NCBI GenBank assembly: GCA_003223325.1
Contig: QHYS01000071.1
Location: 1-48,213, forward strand
Length of the DNA stretch: 48,213 nucleotides
Source: Acidobacteriota bacterium
GTDB lineage: Bacteria; Acidobacteriota; Terriglobia; Acidiferrales; UBA7541
Reading direction: 5' to 3'
In this document: one piece after another, positions 23,481-23,684 of the stretch
How positions within the stretch are numbered: the first letter of the stretch is position 1
Layout: every line of letters starts with the position of its first letter
Position numbers and translations under genes: made by a program
Notes under the pieces: generated by a model
Databases searched by the model: none
What the model saw: only the letters and a program-made list of their open reading frames with translations
Told to the model about the DNA's origin: nothing

Positions 23481-23558
23481 ACGCCGGCTACCCGTAGATA
23501 TCTGATAAAGCTTAGGATACATATTTACCGCCTAAGGTGGCCTAAGGTGTTTCTTTCC

Positions 23559-23588
23559 TTGACGTCAGCGGGCCCCATCTTCTAGACT
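23559..23588 (+). promoter_or_regulatory. Sigma-70-like promoter of candidate small RNA
   Basis: The -35 box TTGACG (23559-23564) and -10 box TAGACT (23583-23588) are separated by 18 bases. Just upstream is a tandem CCTAAGGTG pair (23531-23539 and 23541-23549). The expected start of transcription, about 23595, leads straight into the hairpin of the candidate RNA, with no open frame. Confidence 0.55.
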
Positions 23589-23594
23589 TCGGGG

Positions 23595-23684
23595 CGAGGA
23601 ACGAGTTTCAGGGCCTTCCGCGCATAGGCCTGGAAACTATTCTCCCCTCTGGAAAGCCCACCGTTTAGGTGGGCTTTCTGTTTT
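23595..23684 (+). ncRNA. Candidate small non-coding RNA
   Basis: About 90 bases lie between a good promoter and a good terminator. The first element is a strong hairpin: GTTTCAGGGCCT pairs with AGGCCTGGAAAC (one mismatch and one G-T pair in 12 positions) around a 9-base loop. A pyrimidine-rich single-stranded stretch follows, TATTCTCCCCTCTGG, which is complementary to Shine-Dalgarno sequences. The terminator hairpin comes last. No reading frame of useful length is present. I do not recognise the family; comparison with Rfam Acidobacteria motifs such as Acido-1 would be the obvious test. A regulatory RNA that pairs with ribosome-binding sites is an inference from the CU-rich stretch. Confidence 0.55.
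23653..23684 (+). terminator. Rho-independent terminator
   Basis: A perfect 10-bp stem, AAAGCCCACC (23653-23662) and GGTGGGCTTT (23668-23677), with a 5-base loop, followed by CTGTTTT. It ends the candidate small RNA and would also stop read-through from the DUF6599 gene. Confidence 0.85.

Follow-up and report, generated by a model that had tools for sequence, protein, structure and literature searches.

The Acidobacteriota are a major soil phylum almost without known regulatory RNAs, and a 2022 review counted four annotated sRNAs (PMC9029176). Acido-1 and Acido-Lenti-1 are non-coding RNAs that have been predicted in Acidobacteria (PMC2864571). Elsewhere, the alpha-r14 or 'cuckoo' sRNAs of alphaproteobacteria, such as NfeR1, have a conserved unpaired CU-rich anti-Shine-Dalgarno motif together with variable stems, and many mRNAs have been proposed as their targets (PMC10746234). 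In Neisseria meningitidis, NmsRA and NmsRB have their own promoter and carry anti-Shine-Dalgarno motifs that repress the translation of metabolic mRNAs (PMC5362039).

We have analyzed a stretch of 48,213 nucleotides of acidobacterial DNA (contig QHYS01000071.1; termed the window below), in which a preliminary description had proposed an orphan small RNA with its own promoter, an anti-Shine-Dalgarno stretch and a terminator. We conclude that a real RNA gene almost certainly exists here. In related loci of the Acidobacteriaceae type its CUCCC, set in a stretch complementary to purines, is invariant and for the most part predicted to be unpaired, and by analogy it resembles the anti-Shine-Dalgarno sRNAs. 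However, the alpha-r14 RNAs have three hairpins, each with CCUCCUCCC, whereas the RNA in the window has a single hairpin plus terminator, with its different motif CUAUUCUCCC placed after the hairpin and not in loops, and it belongs to a different phylum and locus. We therefore rejected membership of the alpha-r14 group. NmsRA and NmsRB are sibling genes with two anti-Shine-Dalgarno motifs each, and we saw no relation to them in sequence or location. 6S RNA is likewise a stand-alone bacterial non-coding RNA, but the sRNA in the window is half as long and has a different structure; 6S (RF00013) has no match in the window, and that of this genome lies on another contig (G000:C260:65653-65852).

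The comparison with Rfam suggested in the preliminary description gave no gathering-score match for the sRNA in the window or for 13 related loci, and none to Acido-1 (RF01686) or Acido-Lenti-1 (RF01687) even at E values up to 10. Weak matches to rnk_pseudo, RNAI, htlv_FSE and isrD (E 0.8-10) fall far below the cut-off and were set aside. A literature search of incomplete coverage found no earlier report of this Terriglobia sRNA family, and on these comparisons the family is previously uncatalogued.

The promoter, the RNA and its component parts all lie on the + strand. The −35 box TTGACG (23559-23564; the conserved form CTTGAC starts at 23558) is separated by a spacer of 18 bases from the −10 box TAGACT (23583-23588), and a small RNA of ~90 nt (23595-23684), recognized by covariance-model matches and covariation, would begin 6-8 nt past the −10 box. 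Close to its 5′ end there is a GAGG sequence (23596-23599), followed by a stem-loop (23604-23638) present in both the MFE and centroid folds, with a loop core of CCGCGCA (23618-23624). The CU-rich stretch UAUUCUCCCCUCU (23638-23650) is a putative anti-Shine-Dalgarno seed and contains the CU-rich CTCCCCTCT (23642-23650). The intrinsic terminator (23651-23684) has a perfect 10-bp stem formed by the arms AAAGCCCACC (23653-23662) and GGTGGGCTTT (23668-23677), extendable to 12-13 pairs, and then TTTT. The promoter boxes and their spacing, the hairpin, the CU stretch and the terminator stem are all found where the preliminary description had placed them. The fold of 23594-23684 has a free energy of −43.8 kcal/mol compared with −27.4 for shuffled sequences (z −4.6), and none of 200 shuffles was as stable. 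There is one copy of the sRNA in the genome from which the window comes.

A search of 60 relatives at the DNA level found the element in 10, all within the genus or family of the window. From nine of these we built a covariance model beginning at the −10 box, with the −35 box left outside, and this, at E<1e-7, matched 32 of the family's 89 genomes, which fall in 10 of 13 genera. In the 30 best family loci 93% of the named-structure cells pair, and 17 of 23 pairs are changed on both sides compared with 9.6 in shuffles. Because the shuffle control ignores relatedness and the 30-locus alignment had been fitted to the model, we give weight to two other observations: shifting the pairing partners by 1-3 columns abolishes the signal of double-sided change, and changes in the terminator and upper stem are already present in the unfitted alignment A4. 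In the terminator, 11 of 13 pairs vary on both sides among relatives. The covariation check proposed in the preliminary description has thus revealed compensatory changes in both stems.

The promoter-like pair is not significant by itself (1 found, 2.9 expected, in 8 kb). Its significance derives from its conservation in relatives, as a single copy would prove little. All 30 family loci have CTTGAC at a fixed spacing of 17-18 bases ahead of a −10 box of TAGACT, TAAACT or TACACT, even though the −35 box lay outside the search model, and this bears out the proposal of a non-coding RNA gene with its own promoter. Transcription would thus start shortly past the 3′ end of a DUF6599 gene, from a promoter of the sigma-70 type, and end at the intrinsic terminator. 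On the 5′ side of the −35 box there is an AT-rich block (23498-23527, + strand) that is retained within the genus, and a comparable block is conserved in Acidobacteriaceae as AATAAAGGA (TTGAAAATAAAGGA-TTA; loci L188-L267). This could be a binding site for an activator, unlike the tandem CCTAAGGTG (23531-23539 and 23541-23549, + strand) to which the preliminary description had tentatively assigned that kind of role. The pair is not conserved: there is one copy in G001 and an altered single copy in G003, both relatives within the genus, and none in other genera.

The predicted sRNA family is class-wide in the Terriglobia, a class of soil bacteria within the Acidobacteriota. Using a refined model and inspection of sequences 3′ of DUF6599 genes we find relatives in five further families, plainly in f2, f3, f8 and f11 and in divergent form in f5, with one likely case (L115) in a sixth, f7. 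They have a common plan of (C)TTGAC, a −10 box, a stem-loop of ~11 bp whose loop varies, AUUCUCCCU (or a sequence close to it), and a terminator; the core shared by distant families is the ~11-bp hairpin leading to ACUAUUCUCCC and the terminator. Family f11 we take to be the Acidobacteriaceae, and GAACUAUUCUCCC is identical letter for letter between its members and those of the window's family. An exact pattern around GAACUAUUCUCCC matches 30 of 396 genomes of the phylum, all in f11 and none outside the class, compared with 1 for the reversed control. Scanning 84,980 species with the exact pattern gave at least 118 matches, and all 80 of those listed are Acidobacteriota, including Edaphobacter lichenicola, Granulicella, Acidicapsa dinghuensis, Terracidiphilus and Candidatus Sulfotelmatobacter. 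CTTGAC(A/T) is present in 79 of the 80 named loci listed. Across 78 loci among the listed matches of this Acidobacteriaceae-type scan, the −35 box, the purines at the 5′ end, the hairpin and GAACTATTCTCCC are almost completely conserved; conservation also peaks at the terminator, and past it none is left. Within the Acidobacteriaceae alone the stem is too invariant for covariation to be assessed.

Within the window's family, genera g6 and g12 do not show the sRNA 3′ of DUF6599, nor do families f9 and f10 or some f7 genomes; in all of these it has therefore been lost, moved, or altered beyond recognition. Weak R2 matches in other families (E 1e-4 to 1e-3) were rejected unless located 3′ of DUF6599, so that L056, L059, L062, L063 and L064 were discarded. 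One Acidobacterium MAG has two copies of the sRNA pattern (L225 and L238; DAHUYD010000157.1 and DAHUYD010000183.1), which may reflect duplication or a mixed bin. For a phylum so poor in described regulatory RNAs such a family would offer a concrete entry point, in that its address is fixed, its seed hardly varies, and cultured Edaphobacter, Granulicella and Acidicapsa have members of it.

The address is that of the DUF6599 gene (PF20244; 22296-23480, + strand, Pfam E=1.6e-26). A DUF6599 gene lies immediately upstream on the same strand in 30 of 30 family loci, and directly upstream in 76 of the 77 named loci, among the matches listed, that have enough upstream sequence. In the exception, L203, it lies ~1.3 kb further upstream, and in G222 some 56 kb separate the f11 pattern from the DUF6599 match that is listed. 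Of 250 genomes of the class 228 have DUF6599, and the 14 control genomes have none. A gene for N-acetylmuramoyl-L-alanine amidase precedes that for DUF6599 in the window and in some relatives, and this order suggests an envelope role for DUF6599. The downstream genes, as named from their sequences, differ in content and orientation, and include an HD-domain gene (from 23891) in the window, and cytochrome oxidase subunits, a peptidase and others in relatives. A gene for tRNA-Thr(CGU) is frequent there (L005, L006, L010, L046, L048, L049, L051, L055, L104-L107, L112, L118, L119 and L132). Because DUF6599 is constant upstream while the downstream genes vary, the sRNA is neither an orphan, as had been supposed, nor the leader of a fixed downstream gene. 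In family f5, tRNA-Thr(CGU) starts right after the T-run of the terminator, and a single promoter is seen ahead of both.

Given this location, the element might belong to the DUF6599 mRNA as its 3′ UTR and terminator, kept for 3′-end formation or stability and perhaps processed out. It is always directly 3′ of DUF6599 and co-directional with it, and a terminator scan lists none between the DUF6599 stop codon and the terminator of the sRNA. Yet an invariant −35/−10 pair separates the stop codon from the RNA, a terminator needs neither an invariant CU linker nor a hairpin, and in L203 and G222 the close linkage is relaxed, so we regard this explanation as quite improbable. Still harder to sustain is a cis-acting leader or attenuator of the next gene, be it the HD-domain gene of the window or the tRNA-Thr(CGU) of many relatives. 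The tRNA gene is directly next in f5, and f2, f3 and some of f11 have it in the same orientation as the sRNA, but it is convergent to the sRNA in L005, L006, L010 and L055; the variation of downstream genes among genera leaves no constant cis target, and in the fold of 23594-23684 the hairpin is clear of the terminator and does not compete with it. Least credible of all is that the element codes for a leader peptide or is a small ORF. In 37 of the 80 named loci listed a frame that begins with ATG, MALPPLELFSL for example, runs across the conserved stretch, but the coding explanation fails because this frame is absent from the other 43, and it is absent from the window as well. No reading frame is conserved, in keeping with the preliminary description, and length differences of one base between loci together with compensation in the stems suit an RNA and not codons.

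The remaining alternative is a non-coding RNA whose loop and CU stretch bind or titrate a protein, as a sponge or cofactor RNA, rather than mRNAs. Families f1 and f3 both retain the CCGCGCA loop core (all 30 family loci, and L046-L049 of f3), and its unpaired probability is ~0.99 in most loci. In several genomes a gene for an Hfq-related protein is found 2-12 kb from the sRNA gene, and a search for antisense targets within the genus found none. Against this, the Acidobacteriaceae replace the CCGCGCA loop with CUUUGCCU-like ones whereas CUAUUCUCCC persists, and the RNA lacks the repeated binding motifs typical of Csr-type sponges. On these observations a protein-binding function seems unlikely, and we think it rather probable that the Terriglobia sRNA family acts in trans through its CU stretch.

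For action in trans, the RNA is predicted to fold as one stem-loop, a short CU-rich linker (A)CUAUUCUCCC(C) and the terminator hairpin. The linker, with GAACUAUUCUCCCU as the candidate pairing seed, would pair with the purine-rich, GGGAGAAU-like sequences at the Shine-Dalgarno sites of several putative target mRNAs, and by blocking ribosome binding would shut them off. For members of the window's family, the CCGCGCA loop is accessible and might serve as a second pairing site or as a grip for a protein. The CU stretch had been described as unpaired. It is indeed conserved and anti-Shine-Dalgarno-like, but it is not fully unpaired: base-pair probabilities in the window's family pair the 5′ GAGG with the CCUC end of the stretch, whose mean unpaired probability is ~0.1-0.6. 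In genus g3 both GAGG and CCUC are absent. This pairing and its joint absence make plausible a closed form of the sRNA, with the linker loosely covered by the 5′ purine stretch, that must open for pairing.

Targets were sought within the genus. Beyond the sRNA gene itself, a long antisense target for CTATTCTCCCCTCTGG gave few scattered matches, none at a clear gene start, and their numbers were barely above those of the reversed control. The start of the DUF6599 mRNA was rejected as a target, its duplex of −9.06 kcal/mol being no better than −8.97 for shuffled sequence. We also considered that the CU stretch and the loop, CCGCGCAU with its complement AUGCGCGG, might pair simultaneously with one start codon and its Shine-Dalgarno sequence; the idea was dropped because too many matches would be expected by chance and because conservation of the loop does not extend to the whole class.

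Several observations count against action in trans, among them the negative outcome of the target searches in the genus, a pairing with the DUF6599 start no better than for shuffled sequence, and the partial pairing of the CU stretch within the RNA. In addition, a trans-acting RNA does not require the strict linkage to DUF6599, and full-profile matches to canonical Hfq (PF17209), present in most other families of the class, were found in none of the 37 genomes searched from the window's family. What these genomes keep is at most a divergent relative of Hfq (PF21979, Hfq_1), carried by most of them and of the other families. The Hfq-related loci are at G000:C216 (L155:575-916) and in L150-L154, L156 and L157. 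The proximity of the PF21979 gene provides a lead to Hfq_1 as a candidate partner of the sRNA. A broader proposal, which we put forward tentatively and consider doubtful, is that of a core riboregulator ancestral to the Terriglobia, bound to the DUF6599 locus, free of canonical Hfq in the window's family and perhaps served by Hfq_1, that would link cell-envelope genes to global translation control. The window's family seems to retain the sRNA despite the loss of canonical Hfq, and so would offer a natural test of riboregulation that is either chaperone-free or dependent on Hfq_1.
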